A stretch of 64,000 nucleotides of DNA, taken from NCBI RefSeq assembly GCF_014874065.1, contig NZ_JADBEE010000001.1:930001-994000 (forward strand), read 5' to 3'. Under the pieces are notes generated by a model that searched no databases, was not told where the DNA came from, and saw only the letters and a program-made list of their open reading frames with translations. A program made the position numbers and the translations under genes. The DNA is from Nesterenkonia halotolerans (GTDB lineage Bacteria > Actinomycetota > Actinomycetes > Actinomycetales > Micrococcaceae). Of the stretch, positions 9,961 through 31,719 are shown piece by piece. Position 1 is the stretch's first letter. Every line of letters starts with the position of its first letter.

Positions 9961-9998
9961 AGCAGGGGCGGGTCACGTTGGTGGCCCGCCCCTGCTTT
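9961..9998. terminator. Bidirectional hairpin between convergent genes
   Basis: A perfect 12-bp inverted repeat, AGCAGGGGCGGG (9961-9972) and CCCGCCCCTGCT (9985-9996), has a 12-base loop and is followed by TTT. It sits exactly between the plus-strand PNPOx gene and the minus-strand DUF2075 gene, as expected of a shared terminator. Confidence 0.8.
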
Positions 9999-11845
9999 CA
10001 CTGTTGCCCTGAACTCTCCTGGACCACCTTCCGGTCCTGCCCTCCGGACTCGGGGACATCCACTGTCCTCGCAGGTGCGACTCCTACGTCAGTCCTCGAC
10101 TGACTCGTCCCAGCCGCCATGAAATATGGAGCCAGGTATTCACGCAGGTCCGGATCGCAGACGTAGACGTAGGTTCCCTTGATACCTCGGGTCAGTAGAA
10201 CCCCGTAGATGTTCGTGACGTACTCCAGAAGACCCTCATCGCTGAACTTGAGGCCCAGCCGCGGATTATTTTCTTTCCCCTTGGAGTCGAAATAATTGGC
10301 GCGGTCGAACACAATCCGCCGCTGGCGGGTGTCGAACCTCAAGTCGGGCCCGATGACCACGCCCGCGTAGTTCAAGTCGTATCCCTGAACCGTGTGGATT
10401 GAGCCGACTTCCTCCAGGGACGTCCTTGAATTGATCCAGTCTTTGGCCGTGCGGTTCCACTGAAGGCCATAGCCATCGAGGACTATGTCAGCAAGGTTCT
10501 CGTCCTTCTTGCTTATCCACTTCCACGCGTAGCCCGCCACCAATCGAGCGAGCCCGTGCTCTGCGTCCCGTTCACGAATCTTCTCGTGCATCGACTCGAA
10601 GTCTCGGAACATGTCGACCTCATACCCGGCGAAAGTCTCCCGCTCCGGGGCTTCGGATCTCAGTATCGACCGAACGTAGTCGATATAGCCTCGCCCCGCT
10701 CGTACTCGCATCTGCGAGCGCAACTCGTGGTGCCGACCCCCATCTTTGGCGGCATCCAACAGCGATTCCCAAGTAGAACTCGGAATATCGGCCGGTCTCA
10801 CGCTCTGAGCGCCATCCAAGAATAGAATCTGATGGTCGCTCTTTGCTTTGATCCAGTCCAACTGGGTGTAGTGGTGCTCGTCGCTGCCAAACAACTTGCG
10901 GTTGATCTCGGTGAAGCGTGAGTTCTGGTTGGCGGAGGGTTGGTTGGCGCGCTGGTTCAACCGATGGGCTTCATCTACAACGAGTACATCGAAATGCTGA
11001 TCAGATTCGCCGACCGCAAACGGGTCGAGCACCATGGAACGCTCGAGGTACGGAGTTCGATTGAAAACGTCGGCGACGGAAGCACGCAAGGACTGCTGAG
11101 GGACTGCGAACCCGATGGCCAGCGGACTCAGGCGATCTCGGTTCTCGGCCGTGAAGAACTCCGTGAAGCGGGCATCTGACTCATCGAGCGAAGTGTCTAG
11201 TTCTGCGTCCTCAGCGGTCGCGATGTCAGCAAGAAGCTTCATGAGATAAATCGCGACAACGGTCTTACCTGTGCCCGGATTGCCTTGAACGACGATCGGA
11301 ACATCGTGATCCCGAACGGGCCCGCGCTGGAAGAAGTCACGAAGGATGTCTTCGACAGCCATCGCCTGCTCACTCGTGAGCGCTTTAAACGGAGACAGTT
11401 TGAAAAGATCGTTGTTCTCTATCTCGGGGAGCGTACGCTCGAAAATGCCTTCCGTGCGAAGTGCTTGGAATATCTCCCGGAACGTCTTCTGGTACTCGTG
11501 TCTGCCGAAGTACTCGCTATCAACTATGCCTTTATTCCGGTTGCGCACTGCGTAGCGCCCGTCGCCACCTAGACGTTCGATTAAGTATGCCTCTAGATCC
11601 AACGCCGCGGATTTATTGAAAGTTTCGTCGAGGATTATCTGCACTCGATGTAGATCGCTCTTATTGTCCGTGGCAAGGTGTTGCCTAATCCGGGAGGCGA
11701 CGTTTCGGGACTCCCCCACGTAGATCGAGGTGTCATTGCGCAACGTGTAGACGGCAGGCCAGTTTGTATACCGCACATCGCGCTCGGTGAGAATAGATAC
11801 GGCATCCTTCTCGAACCGCGATCCCGAGATCTCATAACTGGTCAT
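9998..11845 (-). CDS. GIY-YIG nuclease domain / DUF2075 superfamily helicase fusion protein
   Basis: 615 residues. The N-terminus is a GIY-YIG nuclease-like domain (VYTL near 32-35, IYVGESRNVASRIRQH at 41-56, conserved Glu85 in LDLEAYLIER). The rest is a DUF2075 (COG3410) SF1-type ATPase: Walker A QGNPGTGKT at 187-195, DEAH 291-294, and a QGYDLNYAG motif late in the protein. The start overlaps the MazG-like gene by 14 bases. The gene is clearly AT-richer than its neighbours and uses AT-ending codons, which suggests horizontal transfer. A role in restricting or processing foreign nucleic acid is inference; the family function is not established. Confidence 0.88.
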   Translation of the reverse strand: MTSYEISGSRFEKDAVSILTERDVRYTNWPAVYTLRNDTSIYVGESRNVASRIRQHLATDNKSDLHRVQIILDETFNKSAALDLEAYLIERLGGDGRYAVRNRNKGIVDSEYFGRHEYQKTFREIFQALRTEGIFERTLPEIENNDLFKLSPFKALTSEQAMAVEDILRDFFQRGPVRDHDVPIVVQGNPGTGKTVVAIYLMKLLADIATAEDAELDTSLDESDARFTEFFTAENRDRLSPLAIGFAVPQQSLRASVADVFNRTPYLERSMVLDPFAVGESDQHFDVLVVDEAHRLNQRANQPSANQNSRFTEINRKLFGSDEHHYTQLDWIKAKSDHQILFLDGAQSVRPADIPSSTWESLLDAAKDGGRHHELRSQMRVRAGRGYIDYVRSILRSEAPERETFAGYEVDMFRDFESMHEKIRERDAEHGLARLVAGYAWKWISKKDENLADIVLDGYGLQWNRTAKDWINSRTSLEEVGSIHTVQGYDLNYAGVVIGPDLRFDTRQRRIVFDRANYFDSKGKENNPRLGLKFSDEGLLEYVTNIYGVLLTRGIKGTYVYVCDPDLREYLAPYFMAAGTSQSRTDVGVAPARTVDVPESGGQDRKVVQESSGQQ

Positions 11846-12152
11846 ATTTGGCGCTCGTACCCTTCGCTTTGTCTACGGGATACTTCTCACGAGTCGTCTG
11901 AAGCTTCTCAAGGACGATCTCGTCCGGTTCCCAGCCCATCCGATCCGCCAACAAATATGCGTACGTCAAAACATCCGCAAGTTCCGAACGAATTTCCTCG
12001 GAGTCACTTTGCCCACCCCATTGCACACGCTCAAGCAGCTCGCCTGACTCAATCGCGATGCTCTTAATCAAGTTCTCGGGGCTATGGAACTGTCCCCAAT
12101 CACGTTCTGCGACGAAACTTCTCAGCGCCAATTTGGTTTCTTGAGACGACAT
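11832..12152 (-). CDS. MazG-like nucleotide pyrophosphohydrolase
   Basis: 106-residue single-domain all-alpha NTP pyrophosphatase. The metal-binding acidic residues are visible as ESGELLE (Glu35, Glu38, Glu41) and ELADVLTYAYLLAD (Glu57, Asp60, Asp70). Family knowledge: it hydrolyses (d)NTPs to NMP and pyrophosphate. It is the first gene of a two-gene AT-rich unit with the GIY-YIG/DUF2075 helicase, overlapping its start, so the two are co-translated. The pairing suggests a joint role in nucleotide depletion or defence (inference). Confidence 0.88.
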   Translation of the reverse strand: MSSQETKLALRSFVAERDWGQFHSPENLIKSIAIESGELLERVQWGGQSDSEEIRSELADVLTYAYLLADRMGWEPDEIVLEKLQTTREKYPVDKAKGTSAKYDQL

Positions 12153-21134: not shown

Positions 21135-21253
21135 GGGCACCGTACTTGCCCGGGCGGTTGCGACACCGGGCCGAATCATCACCTGGAGCACCCCACTACG
21201 GTGAGAGGGTTGCTGTCCGGACAGCCAGGGCTGTGGTCCGGAACTCGTGATTC
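21135..21253 (-). ncRNA. SAM-type riboswitch (SAM-IV / SAM-I-IV-like) in the leader of the monooxygenase operon
   Basis: Read on the minus strand, the leader begins GAATCACGAGT (from 21253). It continues through CTGGCTGTCC..ACAGCAACCCTC and then GTGGGGTGCTCC, and closes with AGGTGATGATTC (to 21173). This order (P1 with the GAG turn, CAGCAACCCTC, GGGGTGCTCC, then the 3' P1 strand) matches the actinobacterial SAM-IV/SAM-I-IV core. GGCCCGG and CCGGGC after P1 could form the extra P5-type helix. The core is 81 nt; the downstream part to about 21135 is less certain. Expected behaviour: expression off when S-adenosylmethionine is abundant. Confidence 0.78.
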
Positions 21254-21358: not shown

Positions 21359-22399
21359 CTACACAGGACGGTTGAGTCCGTCACCGTCCCACGTCAGGTC
21401 AGCGTTTGTCCGGATGAGGAGCACTTCGAGGCCGGGTGTCTGCATCAGCTCGCCGATGAGTTCGCTGGTTCCCGCCACCAGCGTCGAGTCGCAATCGATC
21501 TCTGTGGCGAGCACCCAGGAGTGATCGTCTGGCCACAGGAGGCTGGGCGACTGGACCCACTGGGGGTGCTCGGCCCACGGCGCCCGTGCAGGCCAATCAG
21601 GGTCGGAGAAGTGCTCTGCACCGGCCTGAAAGAGGAAATAGTGCCGCCCGGTCTCTCCATGGAGGTCGAACCGCGGACCGGTCGCGATCTCAGGGGGAAG
21701 CACGCCAGAGCCTGGTTTCGGCGTATTCCAAGCGATCGTCGGGAGAGTCCGCTTCACCAACCGGAGGATCCTCCTGCTGAACCTGCGGGCGGCAGCAGCC
21801 CTCCTACGAAACGACACCGCGGCGCGCCACACAACTGCCTCGGCGTGGTGGTCAGCCGAAGAGCCGTCACCCGTTTCGACCACCATGAACTGCACCCCAG
21901 CCGAGCTCACGAGGCCACCCCATCCTTCCCAGACAGCAGCAATACCGGCATCGGGGGTCGCAGTATGCCGGGCAAGCACGCGGGCGAGGACCGAGAGCGA
22001 CCTCGCCTCGAGGCTTCCCATAGATGGAACACCGTAGCGCCACCCATCAGGAGCGACAGCCTCCTGCGCGTCATCGTGGAGGGACCGCTGCAGGCGTGCG
22101 TACTGGGCTTCTGAGTGCATGGTGGTGCCGAACGCTTCCGCGACGCTTGCCCAGGTGGTGCGCTCCGTTTCAAGTGAAGCGTCGATGTCCGAGGTGCCTT
22201 CAAAGTAGGTCGCCTCGTCAACGCCGAGCCATGTCTTGGCAGCCACCGGGCGGTCACGCTCGAGAGGGTGAAACACTCGCGCATACATCTCGTAGCCGCG
22301 AGGCACTATCGACAGAACACTGCCGAAGGGCTCAGCCTCCATGGGACGAAGCCATTCACCGCGTCCTACATCAGGCACGTACCGGAACTCCCCCGACAT
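21359..22399 (-). CDS. Hypothetical protein
   Basis: 346 residues, no family recognised. It contains Trp-rich stretches (WEGWGGL near 150; DWPARAPWAEHPQWVQSP near 290) and a C-terminal LLWPDDHSWVLATEIDCDSTLVAG-type segment seen in uncharacterised actinobacterial proteins. No signal peptide or membrane helix. ATG 22399 lies two bases after the stop of the lipoprotein gene. It is the last gene of the long minus-strand chain that begins at 31507. Confidence 0.75.
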   Translation of the reverse strand: MSGEFRYVPDVGRGEWLRPMEAEPFGSVLSIVPRGYEMYARVFHPLERDRPVAAKTWLGVDEATYFEGTSDIDASLETERTTWASVAEAFGTTMHSEAQYARLQRSLHDDAQEAVAPDGWRYGVPSMGSLEARSLSVLARVLARHTATPDAGIAAVWEGWGGLVSSAGVQFMVVETGDGSSADHHAEAVVWRAAVSFRRRAAAARRFSRRILRLVKRTLPTIAWNTPKPGSGVLPPEIATGPRFDLHGETGRHYFLFQAGAEHFSDPDWPARAPWAEHPQWVQSPSLLWPDDHSWVLATEIDCDSTLVAGTSELIGELMQTPGLEVLLIRTNADLTWDGDGLNRPV

Positions 22400-22401
22400 G
22401 C

Positions 22402-22734
22402 TCAGTTTCCCTGCGGAGGTTGTGAGACCTCGACGTGGATCTGGACGTCCACGCCATCCGTCGCGTCTTCTGCAGCCTCCGTGTACTCGCGAACCTCGTC
22501 TTCGCTGATCTCCTCCTCCGGGTCCCAGATCGTCACCTCCAAGACGCCATCCTGGGAGGAATACGCGGCACCTTTGACCTGCGGGAGATGACTCATCGAC
22601 TGCAGCGCCTCCTCTTCCACGCTCTGCGGTTCCGGCGGCCCGCCTGAGCACGCGGTGAGCAGCCCGGCAGCGGTGGCGGTAAAGATCGCTAGTGGCGCGA
22701 CTCGCCGTCGCATTCGTGTTGACCGTGCACTCAT
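22402..22734 (-). CDS. Small lipoprotein of unknown function
   Basis: 110 residues. An arginine-rich n-region, a hydrophobic stretch and the lipobox LTAC (Cys29) mark it as an exported lipoprotein. The mature part is acidic (EEEISEDEVREYTEAAEDATDG) and reads as a short two-strand/one-helix domain. It lies three bases after the EEP nuclease stop and two bases before the next start. Its link to the nuclease/helicase genes may be only transcriptional. Confidence 0.78.
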   Translation of the reverse strand: MSARSTRMRRRVAPLAIFTATAAGLLTACSGGPPEPQSVEEEALQSMSHLPQVKGAAYSSQDGVLEVTIWDPEEEISEDEVREYTEAAEDATDGVDVQIHVEVSQPPQGN

Positions 22735-22737
22735 GCT

Positions 22738-23577
22738 TCAGAATTCCTCCGTCTTCTGGGGAGGCCTCGAACCAAACTCATACAGCAGCGGCGCGTGATC
22801 GCTCAGCTCGTCGGCCGGCGCTCCCTCGATCACATCGGCGCGGGTCAAGGACTCGTATAGAACATCATCGAGAAAAGCATGATCCAGCTCAAAGGGTGCT
22901 GTTCCCGACGACAGATAGGTCCGGACTTCATCGGAATGGAATCTGCGCATCGCGTCTCGCCAGCCGTGACTGTCTCTCATCTGGAAGAACTCCCTGTTGC
23001 CCGGGGCCGTTTTGGGCGCCGTGTTATCGAAGAGTCGGGCAACGTTCCAGTCCCCGGCGAAGATGAAACGGTCGCTCTGCACCTCTTGAAGCATGAGGGC
23101 AGCCAGATCATTGTGACCAGCGCGATCCCTGGATGGCCGACGCGCTGCAGCACTGTCCGTGTCAGTCACCGTGGAGGGCGTATCCGAACCGGCCAACGCA
23201 TGCACGGAGGCGAGAGTCAGGAGGCCGTAATTCTCCAGATCGACTACGCCAGTCGTGACATAGCCTCTAAACGCTTCCCAGAGATGCTCATGCTGGGCGG
23301 GAACCTCCGGTCCAGAACGCAGCCCGAACTCCTTCTTGGCCAGAATCGAGCTTCCCCCTACCCGGCTGCTGCGCGGTACACCGTTGATGTCGTAGCGACC
23401 GGACATCCATTGCGGAGCCAGAACATTCAGGTCTGCAGGTTGGCATTCCTGCAGCAATGCGAGGTCAGGGGCAAGCGCCGCCAAGAGAGCCCACTGACGA
23501 CGTCGGTTCTCCCGTCCTCGAAACTTCCCCGGCTTCATGTACGCCATGTTCCACGAGACCACGCGCGTCTCTTTCAC
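22738..23577 (-). CDS. Endonuclease/exonuclease/phosphatase (EEP) family protein
   Basis: 279 residues with all main EEP motifs: VSWNMA (Asn10), LLQEC (Glu44), AGDWNVARLF in the middle, FELDHAFLDD and LSDHAPL near the C-terminus. Family members are Mg2+-dependent nucleases or phosphodiesterases (DNase I/ExoIII-like). The start overlaps the helicase stop by four bases, so it is coupled to the helicase-PLD-DUF6361 genes. It is a plausible nuclease arm of that module. No signal peptide, so cytoplasmic. Confidence 0.87.
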   Translation of the reverse strand: MKETRVVSWNMAYMKPGKFRGRENRRRQWALLAALAPDLALLQECQPADLNVLAPQWMSGRYDINGVPRSSRVGGSSILAKKEFGLRSGPEVPAQHEHLWEAFRGYVTTGVVDLENYGLLTLASVHALAGSDTPSTVTDTDSAAARRPSRDRAGHNDLAALMLQEVQSDRFIFAGDWNVARLFDNTAPKTAPGNREFFQMRDSHGWRDAMRRFHSDEVRTYLSSGTAPFELDHAFLDDVLYESLTRADVIEGAPADELSDHAPLLYEFGSRPPQKTEEF

Positions 23578-26153
23578 CTCTCATCTGCTGCCGGGTCACG
23601 TCGACTGCTTTGCGTCCCCGGTGGGCTCAGGTCGACCTTCATCCAGGCGAGCTCTTCGTGCCGATCCGCCACCACACTGATGAAATCGTCCTGTCGCGGT
23701 TGGCCGAACGCCAGGCGGTACACCCCCACTGTCCTGGTGAGTCGCCGCTGGTGTCCGACCTCGCGACTGAACGGGATCGCGGGGATATACCGCTCCACCG
23801 TCGCCCCACCTGGAGTGGTGTGCAGCCAGTACGGCACCAGCTCGGAGATGCCCTGCGCGGTGGACTGCACCACGGCGGCGTCGAACGCTCCCTGCCATGG
23901 ATCTTCCGACTCCCCCAGCACCGCCAGATCACCGAAGTCTTCGGCAATGTTCTTCCGGACCGCGTGGCCCTTGTACCGGTGCACTCGACCTTCTCGTTGT
24001 TCCATGTCCACGGGATTCGAAGGAAGATTCCAGTGCACCACCGCATGACTGTAGGGATGGAAGTCCAGCCCCTCCTGCCCCACGGACGTTGACGCCAGGA
24101 CAAAGGGCCTAAACGGCGAGTTGAACGCTCTGCGGACCGAGGACTCACGGTGGAAGGTCTTGTCATCAGCTGCTCTGCGACCCCCATACCGTGCGGCAAA
24201 ATGTGTGCTCATACGGTGCTGATGCGAGTAGATGCGGGGCCCGTCTACCTCGAAGGTCTCAATCTCATTGACGGTGCTGCGCAGACCAAGCGCCTCGATG
24301 ACAGCCATGGAAACTCCGGCCACTCGTTCGGCAGGATCCTTGTTGGACAGTCCTTCTGACTCGACCAGCACATGGACGAACTCGTCTAACACTGATTGCA
24401 GGCCCCCATCGAGAGCATGTTGGAGCGCATCACGCCAGTAGGCCCGGTCTCCGGAAGACCGGACGACTGGGACGACCTCAGGCCGGTTGAACAGCAACCT
24501 CAAGGCCCGGGCGATGCTGAACGCAGCCACGCTACGGTCTTTCACCTCTTCGGCCGAGTGATCTCCTGCGATGCGCGTCAAGGCGCGCATCGCACTGGTT
24601 CCAAACCCTCCCACGCCGAGCTCCGCCATCCGCCTTGGCAGATCCACAGGGGGACGTCCCAGATTGTCCGGCAATCTCTGCGTCTCATCGAGGTGAAGCC
24701 GAGCCGCACGGGAACTGGCGGCCTGCCCGGCATGCTCCTCTCCCTCGAGCAAGCCTTTAGGCAGTCCCCAGAGGAACTCACGCATCGCTCGCGCGAGCGC
24801 GTCAGCTGCCGCCGGATCTCGACGCCGGTCCAGCAGCATCGGAGCCGCCCAGTACCAGCGGGGGTCTTCGGCGCCCAAGTCGTCTACCGTCGCCAAAGAT
24901 TCCGGGAGGAGTTCAGCCAGAAGGCTTCGGACTCCCTGCTCGGCGATGTCGAGTACCTCCTGCTGGGGAAGGTCGCGTCGGCGCACGTGCCTCGCGACCG
25001 CCAAGGGGTCAGTGACGCGGGTCAGCTCAGCGAACGGATACGTCAACGACCAGGTCGGCATCGACATGGGACGGTCCTCGGTGATCTTCAAGGTGAGCGG
25101 CGCAACGGCTCGGAGCTGATCGTCGTACCTCCGTGGATCCGATGCTGAACTCGTGAGAGCGGCTGACGCGAGCTCCTTCTCGCGGCTGCGCCGGTCTGCT
25201 TCGTAGCTGAGCAGGGTCGAAATGGCTTTAGGCACCACCGTCCACGCAGAGAACACCAGCCGTTTGGTGAAGGACCCGAGTCCCGTATGGGAGAACGGCC
25301 CGCTGGGGCGGTAATAGGACAACGACGGCGGCAGCCAGAGGACATCGGCAGCGCCTGACTTGAATACATCTTCCTCGAGTGATCTCAGCTTCGCGTTCCC
25401 AGGGTCGAGTTTCCTGTAGTCCCGGATGACGCGCCAGTCCAGCAGTCCTGAGGCACTGGACAGGGTTCGAGCCAGGGTGGGGTCGCCCATATCGACGCGA
25501 TCATGAAAGTTCTTGCGGAGCATGTACGAGTCGCGCTCCATGAGGTTGAGCGGATATGGACTGGAGCGCCAGTACTCAAGGGCGTCGCGTGAACCGACAT
25601 GTTTGGCCACGCGATCCAGAGTGACCCAGGAACGCAGGTCTTGTGGCGTGACCTGCGGCTCCGGCAGGTGACGCAGCTTCACCATCGCGTCGGCCTCGGT
25701 GGTGAATGCGGTCCGCTCGGTGCGACACATGACCCGGCGCAGCTCGCTCTCCACTGCATCCTTGGCCTCCGCGGCCAACGCCGTCTCCGCCGGATCCGAG
25801 GTAAGCCGCTCCATCGCTCGGCCCATCGTCTTCAGTTGTGACTCCACCCGAACCGCTCGGGGTGGCCCGGCAAGGAATTCAACGGTCTTGATGAAGTCGC
25901 GGTAGTGGTCATCGCCGTCCTCGTCGTCGTGCAGCGTATACATCTTGTAGGGGGTGGCGGAGAGCATCAAGATCTTGGCCTTCTCCTGGTTGAACATGCG
26001 TTGCGCCAGCTTCGCCCCGGGAACGTCCGTCTCTGCGGGCGCGTCGAGAAGATCTTTGAAGCGTTGAAACTCATCAAGGATCACGAGATCCGGCGACAAG
26101 AGGTCCAGGGCTATCTCGGACACTGTTGCTCGGAGGCGCGCTATGACGCGCAT
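23574..26153 (-). CDS. Helicase C-terminal fragment (DEFQ to motif VI)
   Basis: 859 residues if started at ATG 26153, which has GGGAG six bases upstream, so independent translation is possible. Visible motifs are DLVILDEFQRF (motif II), LMLSATPYKMY (motif III), VGQEGLDFHPY and QREGRVHRYKGH (motif VI) near the C-terminal third. It has a long middle insertion (about 300-550) with no recognised domain. Without the N-terminal fragment it has no Walker A. Confidence 0.6.
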   Translation of the reverse strand: MRVIARLRATVSEIALDLLSPDLVILDEFQRFKDLLDAPAETDVPGAKLAQRMFNQEKAKILMLSATPYKMYTLHDDEDGDDHYRDFIKTVEFLAGPPRAVRVESQLKTMGRAMERLTSDPAETALAAEAKDAVESELRRVMCRTERTAFTTEADAMVKLRHLPEPQVTPQDLRSWVTLDRVAKHVGSRDALEYWRSSPYPLNLMERDSYMLRKNFHDRVDMGDPTLARTLSSASGLLDWRVIRDYRKLDPGNAKLRSLEEDVFKSGAADVLWLPPSLSYYRPSGPFSHTGLGSFTKRLVFSAWTVVPKAISTLLSYEADRRSREKELASAALTSSASDPRRYDDQLRAVAPLTLKITEDRPMSMPTWSLTYPFAELTRVTDPLAVARHVRRRDLPQQEVLDIAEQGVRSLLAELLPESLATVDDLGAEDPRWYWAAPMLLDRRRDPAAADALARAMREFLWGLPKGLLEGEEHAGQAASSRAARLHLDETQRLPDNLGRPPVDLPRRMAELGVGGFGTSAMRALTRIAGDHSAEEVKDRSVAAFSIARALRLLFNRPEVVPVVRSSGDRAYWRDALQHALDGGLQSVLDEFVHVLVESEGLSNKDPAERVAGVSMAVIEALGLRSTVNEIETFEVDGPRIYSHQHRMSTHFAARYGGRRAADDKTFHRESSVRRAFNSPFRPFVLASTSVGQEGLDFHPYSHAVVHWNLPSNPVDMEQREGRVHRYKGHAVRKNIAEDFGDLAVLGESEDPWQGAFDAAVVQSTAQGISELVPYWLHTTPGGATVERYIPAIPFSREVGHQRRLTRTVGVYRLAFGQPRQDDFISVVADRHEELAWMKVDLSPPGTQSSRRDPAADER

Positions 26154-26175
26154 GCGCCGCTCCCGTAGGAGCGCA

Positions 26176-26865
26176 TCAGGGTACCATGCCGTCGAGCGCC
26201 TCAAACTCTGCGGCACACTCCGTGACCTCGTCCAACAGCCCTCTGCCGTCTGGCCCTCGGCGCACCCGGCATTCCTGGATAAAGGTGTCACAGGTGCCTC
26301 TGTCCAATTCCTGGACGCTGAAGGTGTCGAATTCTCGGTCGAAGTTGTCCCGTCTCATCTCGCCGCGGAACATCTCTCGCCACGAATGATTTTCCGCTGC
26401 TTCAGGCACTCCACCTTGGACGAGCATATGCAGAATCAAGAGTCGTTCATCGCCGCGTCCGAGCCGGTCTCCCTGGGTGAACGACGTCCCAGTGGTGAGG
26501 GCAATGAAGTTGACCTTATTGCGGCTGAGGGGACCGGTGACGCTGGGTAGCAAAGTAAGTCGGTCAGCGTGACGGACCTGGTGGGCTCCGACTGAATTGA
26601 GCCGGGCGAGGTTTTGCGCAGCGATCTGTGCATTAGTACAGATGTAAACCACGTCGATGCGATCCTTCTTCTTCCAGAGGTGGTCGACGGTTCGAGCCAC
26701 CACGCCGCGCGCCACCATGGTCTTCCCGAGTCCAGTTTCATCGGCGACTAGGAACCTCTGGACCGGGTCGTGTTCACCCCATAGCCGGTTGAAGGCGTAG
26801 TCCACGGTGCTTCGTTGGAAGTCTTTGAGCCCGCTCAGCGTGGAGGAGACGTCAGGTCGCTCCAT
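26176..26865 (-). CDS. Helicase N-terminal fragment (Walker A half)
   Basis: 229 residues. It begins FQRSTVDYAFNRLW and has Walker A ADETGLGKT, then NFIALTTGTSF. It ends in VTECAAEFEALDGMVP at a stop just after the frame change. It lacks the DEAD-box-like and RecA-2 motifs, so alone it could not be a working helicase. The start ATG lies within the PLD stop codon (TGATG), behind a good GGAGG. Confidence 0.6.
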   Translation of the reverse strand: MERPDVSSTLSGLKDFQRSTVDYAFNRLWGEHDPVQRFLVADETGLGKTMVARGVVARTVDHLWKKKDRIDVVYICTNAQIAAQNLARLNSVGAHQVRHADRLTLLPSVTGPLSRNKVNFIALTTGTSFTQGDRLGRGDERLLILHMLVQGGVPEAAENHSWREMFRGEMRRDNFDREFDTFSVQELDRGTCDTFIQECRVRRGPDGRGLLDEVTECAAEFEALDGMVP

Positions 26866-28724
26866 CAAGACACCTCCGCGTGGATCGCCCACACCGTAGA
26901 CCAGAGCTCATCGAGACCGGCCGGGACCAGGTCTTCGGCCTCGGGCGCAGCGCGGAGCTGTTCCATGAGAGTGCTGATGCGCACGAGCGTCTCCGGATCG
27001 CGTCCGATGGCTCGGACCAGGGGTTCGAAGAGGGCGAAGTCCTCAAAGATCCGTCCCGGATCAACCGCCGCAAGCCCAGTGCTCGAGGAGTCCACCAGAT
27101 CCATCTCGGCGACCAACTCGGCGTAGGAGGCTTCATTGAGCAGCAGCATGAGGTACTTCAGCACGTCTGCTTTGTCCTTGATGATCTCCCGAAACGCGGC
27201 GTGCTTTCTGCCTTCGATTTCCCCCGAGAGCTCAGCGATGATGACTCGGCGCCGGGTCACCCGCGTCGCTCCGGACCCCAGCGTGGTCTCTACAGCCAAA
27301 AAGGGCGTGACGTTGAGTCTCGAGAGACGCGACCACTGCACCCGAGAGCTGAGGGTCTTGGCGTGGTGTGTCAATGAGATCGGCCAGATCATGGTGGTGC
27401 CGATCTCAGCGCGCGGCATGTCAAGCCTCAGCGTGGCTTCCACTGTGGTCTCCCCTGTGGCGCGCACATCTAGGACAGGGCGGGCTGATGCAAGTGCAAG
27501 ATGCCACTGTTCGATCTTGCGCTCCGCCTCGTGCTCCTGCTGCGCGGCAGTCTCCTCCAGAGCAGGCGCATAGCTCTCCCACAGATCTTCCAGGCCGGGC
27601 TTACCTGCACCGGTGCCGAGCATGGCTTGCACGCCACACTCGCGGGTCGGGCCGGTGAGCAGGACGTTGAACTCCACGCTGCGGCCCCAGGCCGGGTGCC
27701 CGGTCAGGTTGGCGCTTCCGGTCACGATCACGGATCGCCGTTTGGGCAGGTCCAGCACCACTGTCTTGGCATGGAGACCGTTGGAGGTCTCGAGCTCGAC
27801 GTGCGGCTGTTCCTGTTCCCGGTCTGTGAGGTCAGGGGTATCAGTAGAGGTCATCGGCAGCACGCGCAGCTGCCAACCCTCGGTGATCGCAGGGCCGAGC
27901 ATATCCAGGGCCACCGGTGAGGAGAGCAACGTCCGCTTGTTCGAGGAGGTTCCCGGTGTCATGTCCTTCAGGGCAGTGACCGCCCGGGGCGAGAGGAAGG
28001 GACTCACCGCCAGGAGCTTCGTCGCCTTCATATCAGCGAAGGGCCAGGTGTCGGAGCCGTCGAGTCCGATCGGTAAGAGCTCTCCGTCGCTGAATGGCTC
28101 GGGCAGCATCAGGTCAACCTGGCTCAAGGTCGCGGCGAGGTCTTCGACCTGCCGGGATCGTTGTCGGTCGAGGCCTCGTGTGGTCAAGCCAGGAAGCGCC
28201 CGCAGGAATTCCGCGGCGGGAGCCGCGTCCAGACATGGTTGGTCCTCGTCAGCTGAATCTGGCATCTCATCCAGAACCAGCGCCGTGTCCCAGGCCTGGT
28301 CTTGCGTGATGTTGCGGCTCAGCACAATCAGCCGGTGGTGCAGCGCGCCGTCGTCGTCGGTGAAGCGCAACGCCCAGATCTTGGGATGAAAGATGCCCTC
28401 AGGGTTGGGGGCGGCCACTTCGTGGATGCTGTCTTCTATGAAGGTCAGCACGGTCCGGTACTTGGAGGGCACGTAGATCCCGCCCGCCTGCGTGAAGATG
28501 AGTGTCTTCTCGGCGCAGCGCTGGACGGCCTCGAGCAGCTGGACGGGATCACTCTGGTCACCCACTGCCTCTGCGGCGTCGTGCGAGGCGAAGGAGAGTG
28601 ACGCGGCAAGAAGCGACACCAAGTCCAAGGAGTACGTCGTGCCCACAGCGAGATCGACCCTGTAGCCAGGTGGCGGCTGCAGAAAATGCTGCAGCAAAAT
28701 CCTGTTCTGCGGGTTCAACGTCAT
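26865..28724 (-). CDS. Phospholipase D-like nuclease-family protein
   Basis: 619 residues with two PLD half-sites. The first is FHPKIWALRF with IVLSRNIT (His113, Lys115, Asn138), and the second is GLHAKTVVLD with TGSANLTG (His318, Lys320, Asp325, Asn339). Family members with helicase partners act as nucleases (for example DrmC in DISARM). The C-terminal ~250 residues carry no motif that I recognise. The start overlaps the DUF6361 stop (ATGA), and the stop overlaps the helicase start (TGATG). Confidence 0.88.
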   Translation of the reverse strand: MTLNPQNRILLQHFLQPPPGYRVDLAVGTTYSLDLVSLLAASLSFASHDAAEAVGDQSDPVQLLEAVQRCAEKTLIFTQAGGIYVPSKYRTVLTFIEDSIHEVAAPNPEGIFHPKIWALRFTDDDGALHHRLIVLSRNITQDQAWDTALVLDEMPDSADEDQPCLDAAPAAEFLRALPGLTTRGLDRQRSRQVEDLAATLSQVDLMLPEPFSDGELLPIGLDGSDTWPFADMKATKLLAVSPFLSPRAVTALKDMTPGTSSNKRTLLSSPVALDMLGPAITEGWQLRVLPMTSTDTPDLTDREQEQPHVELETSNGLHAKTVVLDLPKRRSVIVTGSANLTGHPAWGRSVEFNVLLTGPTRECGVQAMLGTGAGKPGLEDLWESYAPALEETAAQQEHEAERKIEQWHLALASARPVLDVRATGETTVEATLRLDMPRAEIGTTMIWPISLTHHAKTLSSRVQWSRLSRLNVTPFLAVETTLGSGATRVTRRRVIIAELSGEIEGRKHAAFREIIKDKADVLKYLMLLLNEASYAELVAEMDLVDSSSTGLAAVDPGRIFEDFALFEPLVRAIGRDPETLVRISTLMEQLRAAPEAEDLVPAGLDELWSTVWAIHAEVS

Positions 28725-29929
28725 GCCTCTGCTCCCGCCTCATAAAGATCCTCCAGGTGCTGACGCACGACGGGCCAGCGAAAGGTCAACCGGGCCGTGC
28801 CGCTGGCCCCTGACCATTGGTCCAAAGCGGCAGGGTTGTGCAGGCGGGCCCGTTTGCCCTTCATCCGGCGTTCTCGATGACTGATCAGTTGGCGAACCTC
28901 CCGGCTGCCAGAGAGGGATTCCGCTGAATCGGCGGTGCGTACATGTCCGGTCCATTCGGCGAGGAAGGCTCGCGAGGACTCGATGCGCTGAATGTCTGCC
29001 GCCGAGAGAACAGTGTTCAACTCCCCCTGGCGGAAGGAGGGAAGCGGATCGTCTGCTTCAGGATCGCTGAACCATCCGCTGAGCGCGGCCCGATAGTGAT
29101 CGACCCGCTCCTCATCTTCGCGCAGCTCGGCCAGCAGGAGGTTGTACAACAGGGACGCACCAAGGATGCTGAAGGAGACTCCGCGGGAGGCTTCGACCAG
29201 ATGGCGCAGCTTTTTGGGCAGCTCCACCAGGGGAGTGATGTCCCACGGTGCACGGCTGCCGGTGAGGTCCACCGCTTCGTGATCGGCCAGCCAGGCGAAG
29301 ATCGAATGGGGGTGTGATCGTCGGATCCGCTCCCTCAGGTATTCGGCTTCCTCCCTGCGCAGTGCGAAGCTCGCCTCGCGAAGCACACCAGCTGGGGCTG
29401 CGGGCAGGTTGGGATCCAGAGCTGAGGTGAGCGCACTCGGCGCGCCCAACTCGCCCGCCCCCGGGTCCTGGTGCCTGGCCCCCAGGTGGCAGAGCTGGAA
29501 GTAGGCGCCGATAGTGGAGGACTTCCGTATGCCCCAGCTCTTCAGTGCTGAGGAGTAGATGCTGCTGGGCATGCGCTGGAGCGTCTTCTGCGCGCGGCTG
29601 CCGATGACACCCTGCTCCTCGCCACCCTTCTGAAGACTTGCGAGAGTTCGCCACTCGTGATGACGCAGCTCAGCCCACATCTGATCCACCGTGGGCTGCT
29701 GTCCGGCCTGCCGCAGGCCCCAGGCGACCAGCAGCACATACCGCAGACGGGTGTGCAACACCGAGGTGCCGGGGAACATGGTGTCGGCGAGCGCGTCGCG
29801 CATAGTGCCGATTCCGAGGTCATCCACTGTGGTCTTGTCTACGAAGCTGTCGAGAACTTCAAGCATATGTCGCCGACGTTCAGGGTCGGCGTCGAGCCAG
29901 CCGAACGAGGAACGGGTCACCTCAGACAT
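28721..29929 (-). CDS. DUF6361 family protein
   Basis: 402 residues. The N-terminus is characteristic of DUF6361: SSFGWLDADPERRRHMLEV, then DDLGIGTMRDALADTMFPGTSVLHTRLRY. The function is unknown. DUF6361 genes are found next to PLD-like and helicase genes, as here, which supports a functional unit. The C-terminus is basic (RRMKGKRARLHN), suggesting nucleic-acid contact (inference). The start overlaps the preceding membrane-protein gene by eight bases. Confidence 0.85.
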   Translation of the reverse strand: MSEVTRSSFGWLDADPERRRHMLEVLDSFVDKTTVDDLGIGTMRDALADTMFPGTSVLHTRLRYVLLVAWGLRQAGQQPTVDQMWAELRHHEWRTLASLQKGGEEQGVIGSRAQKTLQRMPSSIYSSALKSWGIRKSSTIGAYFQLCHLGARHQDPGAGELGAPSALTSALDPNLPAAPAGVLREASFALRREEAEYLRERIRRSHPHSIFAWLADHEAVDLTGSRAPWDITPLVELPKKLRHLVEASRGVSFSILGASLLYNLLLAELREDEERVDHYRAALSGWFSDPEADDPLPSFRQGELNTVLSAADIQRIESSRAFLAEWTGHVRTADSAESLSGSREVRQLISHRERRMKGKRARLHNPAALDQWSGASGTARLTFRWPVVRQHLEDLYEAGAEA

Positions 29930-30449
29930 GGGGATTTCGACTCATACCCGAACAGAAACGTCGTCTTCGGCTCCCCCGCAACAGGAGCTGGTGCTTCAGC
30001 TCGTCAGCGAGGCTCTCGGACTCCCGCACCTGGATTCGAACGTCGCGTCCCGTGTCCTTCATCTCCAGAACGAGCACCTGGTCTCCACGGACTGCGAGCG
30101 TCCGGCCGCGGAGCGTCAGACGCAGGCCCCCTCCGCCTCCCCACCCCGGCGAGGCGACCTGCTCCACACGCACTCTGAGGATTCCTTCAAGCCGCGCACG
30201 CAGCAGCGGCAGGCCCAGGAACCACGAGCGAACGCGCAGGTCCTCGTGATCAGCAATCACGTGCACCCGAGCGCAGGCCAGCAAGACCAGCGACAAGGCC
30301 ACTCCGACCCAGGCGCAGATGATCACCACGATGCTGCCGGATTCCAGGGACAAGCTCATCGAGGCTCCGGCGATCAGAAGCGCCGCCGCAGCGGAGATCA
30401 TCATGGCCGGTGAACTCTCCTGGACTGTCACCGTCGCACCGTTGTACAT
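29922..30449 (-). CDS. Membrane protein with a PH-like domain
   Basis: 175 residues. Two predicted N-terminal membrane helices (about 15-35 and 43-62) are followed by a beta-rich region (VRSWFLGLPLLRARLEGI onward) resembling bacterial PH-domain proteins. The C-terminus is very basic (LLRGSRRRRF). ATG 30449 sits in the PPK2 stop (TGATG); a GTG three bases earlier is the alternative. The function is unknown. It links PPK2 and DUF6361 into one overlapping chain. Confidence 0.7.
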   Translation of the reverse strand: MYNGATVTVQESSPAMMISAAAALLIAGASMSLSLESGSIVVIICAWVGVALSLVLLACARVHVIADHEDLRVRSWFLGLPLLRARLEGILRVRVEQVASPGWGGGGGLRLTLRGRTLAVRGDQVLVLEMKDTGRDVRIQVRESESLADELKHQLLLRGSRRRRFCSGMSRNPHV

Positions 30450-31507
30450 CACGATTCCAGCAGCCGCTTCCGTTCGGCCTCCATGTCATAGTCGGCCGCG
30501 GGCCAGCGCAGCTTCAGATCTGAGAAGGCCGCGATGAGCAGCTCCTGGACCGCCAGGCGGGAGTACCACTTCCGGTCGGCGCCGATCACATGCCAGGGCG
30601 CGTGGTCGGCGTCGGTGGCTTCCACCAGGTACGCGTAGACCGACTGATAGAGGGAGAACTGGGCACGCGAGCCGGCATCGGAGGGGTCGTACTTCCAGTG
30701 CTTCTCCTCGCGGTCCAACCGGGAGACCAGCCGGTCCAGCTGCTCCTCCGGGGAGACGTGGAGCATGACCTTGATGATGACGAAGCCCTGCCGGACCAGT
30801 TCGCGCTCGAAGAGGACCAGCGCCTCGGTGCGGCGCTCCAGCTCCTCGGGGCCCTCGGTGCCGGTGATGGTGGGGACCAGCACATCCTCGTAATGGGAGC
30901 GGTCAAAGACGCCCACATGACCGGGCCGCGGAAGATTGCGGATCACACGCTCGAGGTAGTGCTCGCGCTTCTCCTCCGCGGTGGGTGCGCCGAACCCGGC
31001 CACCTCCACACCCATGGGGTCCATCGAGCTGACCACCTGCTTGACCACCCCGCCCTTGCCGGCGGCGTCCATACCCTGCAGGATCAGCAGCACCCGGGGC
31101 CCGCGGGCCAGATTGCTCAGCGCGGTCTCCACCTCAGGGGAGAACAGCTCCTCGCGACGGGTCTTCTCCTGTGGGGAGCGGCGCGGCACCCGGGCGGCGA
31201 TGGCCTTGGCGACCTCGCGCTGCTCGGCCTCCGGAGCCGAGACCACATGGGCCCACATCAGTTCCTGCAGATCGGCGAGCATCTCGGCACGTTCGGCGAG
31301 CGCATCCTCGCCGTCGTCCTTCTTTCCCTTGAACCCGACCTTCTTGCGGGTAGGTGCATCGGAGAGGCTGAACGGGGAGGCGAACTGGCTGACTCGCCAG
31401 AGACTGCGCGGGTCGCCGTCGAACGGGGTCTTCTTCGCGCCCTTGGGGCCGGGAACACCTGCTAGCGGCACATCGAGCGGGGCGAGGTTCTGGTCATCTT
31501 GGGGCAC
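30449..31507 (-). CDS. Polyphosphate kinase 2 family protein
   Basis: 352 residues. The PPK2 core has Walker A GMDAAGKGG, lid residues around ERVIRNLPRPGHVGVFDRSHYEDVL (split; Walker B is FDRS) and the C-terminal WHVIGADRKWYSRL. Family reaction: transfer of phosphate between polyphosphate and nucleoside (mono/di)phosphates. An insertion near residues 105-125 (RRSPQEKTRREE) is unusual. It starts with GTG 31507. It is the first gene of the ten-kilobase minus-strand chain; the 212-base gap upstream should hold the promoter. Confidence 0.92.
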   Translation of the reverse strand: MPQDDQNLAPLDVPLAGVPGPKGAKKTPFDGDPRSLWRVSQFASPFSLSDAPTRKKVGFKGKKDDGEDALAERAEMLADLQELMWAHVVSAPEAEQREVAKAIAARVPRRSPQEKTRREELFSPEVETALSNLARGPRVLLILQGMDAAGKGGVVKQVVSSMDPMGVEVAGFGAPTAEEKREHYLERVIRNLPRPGHVGVFDRSHYEDVLVPTITGTEGPEELERRTEALVLFERELVRQGFVIIKVMLHVSPEEQLDRLVSRLDREEKHWKYDPSDAGSRAQFSLYQSVYAYLVEATDADHAPWHVIGADRKWYSRLAVQELLIAAFSDLKLRWPAADYDMEAERKRLLES

Positions 31508-31719
31508 GGCGTCTCCTTGGGGCGGGTGGCTCGCCCGCAGGCGGGGCCGTTGATTCTTGGTCCACTCTCATGCCTACCAGAGTTCGTCCCGCCGGGGAAC
31601 CGGTCTGCCGCGGGCCTCCCTTTTCAGCGTCGCGCAGAGTCGATAGCCTCGATGGACGAATTCCAGCGGGTGCCGAACTCCTTGGCGCCAGTCAGACGTC
31701 ACCATCACCGGAGGACGAA

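Follow-up and report, generated by a model that had tools for sequence, protein, structure and literature searches.

The DISARM defense system includes the DrmA and DrmD helicases and the PLD protein DrmC. Azaca, a second system that joins a helicase to a PLD protein, was reportedly first described by Millman et al. in 2022, together with its protection against phages. Azaca (ZacC) is placed among the defense helicases in the methods of the Hachiman paper (PMC12278908), and a domain table citing Millman et al. 2022 assigns a PLD-like domain to the system (PMC10952713). It is also named among the systems that are enriched in Actinobacteria and have an unknown mechanism (PMC10482375), and the entry in a 2026 review still gives this mechanism as unknown (PMC12926258).

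The locus compared here with these systems lies in a window of 64,000 nucleotides, the whole stretch of DNA that was analyzed, from the Nesterenkonia halotolerans genome (2.97 Mb in 3 contigs). With a probability of about three in four, it is an Azaca (ZacABC) anti-phage operon, acquired horizontally along with an accessory ExoIII-like nuclease gene as its fourth member. The defense system itself is known; what is new is the accessory variant, and the frame break is odd. Read on the minus strand from 29929 to 22738, the operon consists of zacA, zacB, the helicase in two open reading frames (ORF1 and ORF2) and the EEP nuclease gene (Table 1). The first-pass annotation had described four genes on this strand joined by stop/start overlaps, which were all recovered: ATGA between ZacA and ZacB, TGATG between ZacB and ZacC, and GTGA between ZacC and EEP, the last being an overlap of 4 bases. 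Its DUF6361 protein (Pfam PF19888, E 3e-50), its two-site PLD protein (aligned PLD residues and the PADLOC ZacB model) and its EEP-type nuclease (PF03372, E 4e-10) were confirmed as well. The SF2 helicase of about 1,100 residues does carry the DEFQ and QREGRVHR motifs, but it does not form the single open frame that had been assumed, ORF1 and ORF2 lying in different frames.

Table 1. Genes of the Azaca locus, the frame-change site and the border genes, in window coordinates
Feature	Position	Strand	Size and motifs	Basis
zacA (DUF6361)	28721..29929	-	402 aa	PADLOC ZacA, Pfam PF19888
zacB	26865..28724	-	619 aa, PLD-type, two HxK...N sites	PADLOC ZacB
zacC part 1	26176..26892	-	238 aa, ORF1, Walker A DETGLGKT	PADLOC ZacC
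zacC part 2	23574..26291	-	905 aa, ORF2, DEFQ, SATPYKM, QEGLDF, QREGRVHR	PADLOC ZacC
zacC frame-change site	26176..26187	-	ATG GTA CCC TGA	ORF1/ORF2 junction compared with unbroken relatives
EEP (ExoIII-like) nuclease	22738..23577	-	279 aa	Pfam PF03372
Resident small lipoprotein-like gene, one insertion border	22402..22734	-		Translation; sister-genome nucleotide match
Resident small membrane-protein-like gene, other insertion border	29922..30452	-		Sister-genome nucleotide match

The same annotation had taken the gene set for a candidate undescribed module, not recognized as any named system, and had proposed a comparison with PADLOC models. This comparison was run and names Azaca: the DUF6361, PLD and helicase proteins are its ZacA, ZacB and ZacC, and the reading as an undescribed system is rejected. 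The three profile matches are near full-length, covering model positions 3-393 of 396 in ZacA (E 1.5e-111) and, in ZacC, positions 5-215 with ORF1 and 219-1016 with ORF2 (E 1.7e-251) out of 1019; the ZacB model was matched with an E of 4.9e-158. The ZacA/DUF6361 protein, the PLD-type ZacB and the SF2 helicase ZacC are all present in the A-B-C order on one strand, but zacC is not one unbroken gene.

The conserved residues of the nucleases fit their families. In the alignment of ZacB, which leaves out L033 and L067 as split or truncated copies, the two PLD half-sites (H113/K115/N138 and H318/K320/N339/E351) are invariant in 8/8 sequences. The EEP protein has 43 protein matches at E<=1e-3 and conserved motifs around N10, E44, G175-D-W-N178 and S259-D-H261. 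In the 32 of these matches that were aligned, E44, D176, N178, D260 and H261 are invariant and N10 is nearly so. From these features a course of action can be proposed, in which ZacC would load on invading DNA as an ATP-driven helicase or translocase. ZacA, almost all helical in its AlphaFold2 model (mean pLDDT 87.5) and without a recognized enzyme domain, might serve as an adaptor or recognition subunit, a role that is a guess because the model has no informative structural match in the PDB. ZacB would cut phage DNA with its paired PLD half-sites, and the EEP enzyme would then degrade or nick the exposed DNA as an end-processing add-on, which is missing from most Azaca systems examined. In this strain, the helicase would be made as two pieces, or in truncated form only. 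The earlier idea that two nuclease folds and one helicase serve the recognition and destruction of foreign or aberrant DNA is supported as far as the defense setting is concerned; the nuclease roles are presumed from sequence.

Five sister stretches around PPK2 were compared (G027, G022, G012, G011 and G021). In G027 (L075), the two border genes stand side by side, which represents the empty site. Window positions 22408-22707 match L075 8272-8577 with 79% nucleotide identity, and positions 29947-31529 match L075 8608-10190 with 87%. Between the two matches, L075 has about 30 bases in place of about 7.2 kb of the window, which puts the limits of the empty site no more than tens of bases away from 22738-29929. 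Because these borders enclose the EEP gene too, it is part of the inserted unit. The stop of the membrane-protein-like border gene, for which no Pfam or PADLOC match was found, overlaps the zacA start. The GC content of the inserted unit is 62.6% versus 66.7% in the rest of the window, and a GC content this low is reached in 10/114 sliding windows, among them the ones that overlap the unit. Restriction-type genes occur at the spot in 2/5 sister stretches. In G011 (L074 2506-9352), a gene matching the HEC-06/Orf5/SspE model, which reads as GmrSD-like, lies next to PPK2 with a type IV REase gene and PDC-M09A/B genes, and in G027 (L075 7182-8168) an Mrr gene adjoins the lipoprotein-like gene. No defense gene was recognized at the spot in the other three, where G022 and G012 have short gaps with the PPK2 and luciferase genes less than 1 kb apart and the G021 proteins were unscanned. 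The two stretches with restriction-type genes therefore support a defense hotspot.

Other features of the window were recorded along with this site. An ORF of 430 aa at 21359-22651 (minus strand) has no Pfam or PADLOC family, and the G022 and G012 alignments end just before it. A SAM-IV riboswitch (21137-21252, minus strand, 90 bits) lies upstream of the genes for a luciferase-like monooxygenase and a solute-binding protein. A low-GC stretch at 9998-12152 (minus strand) holds two overlapping genes, one for a Schlafen-group-3 helicase that includes a GIY-YIG domain and one that is MazG-like, a possible second defense pair.

ZacA was found in 26/396 genomes of the order sample, the source genome included. 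Of the other 25 loci 20 were fetched, and in all of them ZacA, ZacB and ZacC follow in the same order on one strand. In the phylum sample, ZacA occurs in 8/396 genomes, again with the source genome; of the seven other loci, three are complete for ZacABC, contig ends truncate two, and in the remaining two a ZacA fragment is all that was recognized. These fragments, L070 9093-9923 and L071 9505-9783, are remnants or very diverged copies. With its recurrence in 20/20 fetched order-level loci, the three-gene grouping is beyond chance. Of the four-gene set put forward originally, ZacABC travel together, but the EEP gene seldom joins them and the complete set is rare. At the genus level, ZacC is present in 5/30 genomes including the source, and the protein alignments of the four other copies are 28-44% identical to this one. 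One of the four is split in ZacB (in G028, the homology is spread over two ORFs, L033 5969-7859) and another is truncated at a contig end; no EEP gene was found in their fetched stretches. Because the copies are so diverged within one genus, the alignments point to horizontal spread of Azaca. Nesterenkonia sp. DZ6 has the closest ZacC (82%) along with a ZacA of 77% identity. ZacA relatives also occur on plasmids, in 34 records of which 19 are from Cronobacter, and one ZacC relative of 1241 aa (P0088) has a TerD domain (PF02342). In viral contigs, pattern-based scans turned up no EEP or ZacC relative that could be confirmed.

The surroundings of Azaca in other genomes were scanned with PADLOC at E<=1e-15, covering 137/169 predicted flank proteins from 16 of the 20 loci and, as a control, 125/125 proteins from 16 stretches of the same genomes. 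Matches fell into 96 families in the flanks versus 53 in the controls. Among the 25 families listed for the flanks, PDC-S02 has 4 proteins and type IV REase 3; type I REase, GajB and a reverse-transcriptase-associated helicase model have 2 each, and DrmA, DrmD and type II REase 1 each. The GajB and reverse-transcriptase-associated helicase matches, with a best E of about 1e-30, may simply reflect common UvrD-like helicases. The 25 families listed for the controls include mad3 (4 proteins) and single proteins of DpdE, ZorD, DrmD, PDC-S01, PD-T4-6 and mad6. The contrast, drawn from 25 listed families on each side with no formal test, is suggestive of an enrichment of defense genes around Azaca. 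Three loci at the phylum level agree with this, their neighbors including a type I restriction subunit (L065), PglZ and DarT with a macro-domain protein (L066), and a metallophosphoesterase gene (L069). The defense reading of the locus, put forward in the first-pass annotation, is supported by the identity of the three genes as Azaca, by the site being empty in a sister genome and by the restriction-type genes both at this spot and near Azaca elsewhere.

A helicase with two nucleases would also fit a housekeeping DNA-repair operon without a role in defense. This is highly improbable, and a core repair operon is rejected in view of the patchy presence of ZacC in the genus, in diverged copies, and of the empty site in one sister genome at a spot that holds restriction-type genes in two. 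The place of the EEP gene in the operon is a separate question. It could encode an integral fourth subunit of a four-gene Azaca subtype in which the PLD and EEP nucleases act in sequence, and its 4-base overlap with zacC and its position inside the inserted unit speak for such an arrangement. A 47%-identical relative also lies 2.2 kb upstream of zacA, on the same strand, in Cellulomonas sp. APG4, the one other genome with EEP beside Azaca, although a divergent SIR2 gene stands between the two there. A fixed fourth subunit is nevertheless doubtful, as the gene is present in 0/20 order-level Azaca loci within the fetched stretches, and the order sample has EEP in 2/396 genomes (best 6 or fewer candidates per genome scored) against the far more frequent ZacA, the two being the source genome and a genome lacking ZacA, where the match is weak and partial. 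Among 197 family genomes it was found in the source genome itself only (best 13 or fewer candidates per genome scored). None of the 43 EEP matches lies on the 1,257,455-base contig with ZacA and ZacC of Nesterenkonia sp. DZ6, the nearest named carrier, and no EEP gene turned up on plasmids. A pattern-based scan of the genome collection yielded 12 EEP loci, 4 of which are near Azaca or type I restriction genes; of the other eight, one neighbor protein was scanned (L040, VWA). Three relatives, two from Planctomycetota and one from an Akkermansia-named MAG, are located within about 0.7, 1.5 and 5 kb of type I RM genes (L037, L038 and L039, around 10,000), with Abi_C, GmrSD/Schlafen or DUF4062 genes alongside. 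Because the relatives lie near Azaca once and near type I RM genes three times, the EEP gene looks, from its neighborhoods, like a shared defense accessory rather than a fixed Azaca part. It may also be a passenger, since it is absent both from the 20 fetched loci and from the DZ6 Azaca contig.

The frame break in zacC allows for several explanations as well. ORF1 ends with DGMVP-stop at 26178, and from this very proline onward the homology is found in the +1 frame. ORF1 is homologous to residues 1-229 of the unbroken ZacC proteins P0002 and P0003, which are 80-82% identical in the second part, and the homology of ORF2 to them begins at its residue 38; the alignment to P0002 makes the ATG at 26865 the probable zacC start. 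The account which we consider probable is that of a decaying, non-functional Azaca copy, the helicase of which was split by an accidental one-base frameshift. The frame changes where P0002 and P0003 stay open, 19/20 fetched order-level loci encode ZacC in one full-length ORF, and broken Azaca genes occur elsewhere, namely the split ZacB of L033 and the ZacC of L090 (12097-14262), the exception among the 20, which ends after 721 aa, with 23 bases left to the contig end. On the other hand, the other operon genes are open, the break coincides with a published +1 slip sequence, and no net frame-disrupting indel inside genes was seen when the indels across about 13 kb of flanks aligned with relatives were inspected. 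Because of these intact flanks, the assembly is not generally noisy and no general decay is evident, although one sequencing error is possible. The slip site is the core of a different account, according to which a programmed +1 ribosomal frameshift at CCC UGA yields the full-length ZacC and limits its amount. CCC UGA is contained in a published table of +1 slippery sequences (PMC3500957), and a UACG-capped hairpin (CGCUCC-UACG-GGAGCG) begins two bases past the ORF1 stop; the 80 nt around it are, however, only 1.46 sd more stable than shuffles, 15/200 of which are as stable. Among 143,864 random single insertions simulated in 13 intact ZacC genes, only 148 (0.10%) produce CCC TGA no more than three codons away, which speaks for this account; for any of six listed stop-containing sites the number is 338 (0.23%). 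With no distance limit, the numbers rise to 260 (0.18%) for CCC TGA and to 4,114 (2.9%) for any of the six, the latter weighing against a special meaning of the site. Duplications reach CCC TGA within three codons in 30/35,915 cases (0.08%) and 2-nt deletions in 0.07%. The site is absent from every relative examined and was noticed after the fact in one genome, and the interrupted ZacC of L090 ends at CGA TAG, outside the listed slip sites. A programmed frameshift is therefore unlikely, and a lesion, or a single sequencing error, is likelier because the site comes from one genome and is not conserved. It is more unlikely still that Azaca is regulated here as a whole, the +1 slip keeping a dangerous complex of helicase and nuclease in check within an operon that has additionally acquired an ExoIII-like nuclease with relatives near type I restriction genes. 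As judged from its reading frames, the Azaca copy in this strain may be dead or impaired through the frame break.

An Azaca operon with a second nuclease offers a natural handle on the chemistry of a system listed with an unknown mechanism. The EEP coupling points to DNA ends or nicks, left by Azaca, that an ExoIII-like enzyme can use, and the small EEP family may serve several DNA-targeting systems as a common accessory. Should the CCC UGA site be used, the locus would present a defense helicase under frameshift control, of which we know no other case.

Among the known systems, DISARM resembles the locus in its large SF2 helicase and its PLD protein, and the C-terminal helicase motifs of ZacC match DrmA and DrmD weakly (E 3e-7 and 4e-9). 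The likeness noted in the first-pass annotation does not extend beyond these two components. The absence of DrmB and of a methyltransferase, observed there too, holds in the ten ORFs at 17.9-31.5 kb, in which Pfam and PADLOC scans gave no match to DrmB (DUF1998), to DrmC or to a DNA methyltransferase; ZacB matched the PADLOC ZacB model only and not DrmC. DISARM is rejected on these grounds. Hachiman (HamAB) shares the combination of a helicase with a nuclease, and its DNA-integrity sensing is a useful working model, but its proteins are different and the methods of the Hachiman paper count the Azaca ZacC as a separate defense helicase (PMC12278908). The EEP protein resembles the exodeoxyribonuclease III/EEP family in its conserved active-site motifs and in its PDB profile matches, which are exodeoxyribonucleases, and differs in forming a small separate family. 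The closest system is Azaca itself, with which the locus has in common all three core genes, their order and the near full-length profiles, and from which it differs by the fourth, ExoIII-like gene overlapping zacC and by the split zacC frame.
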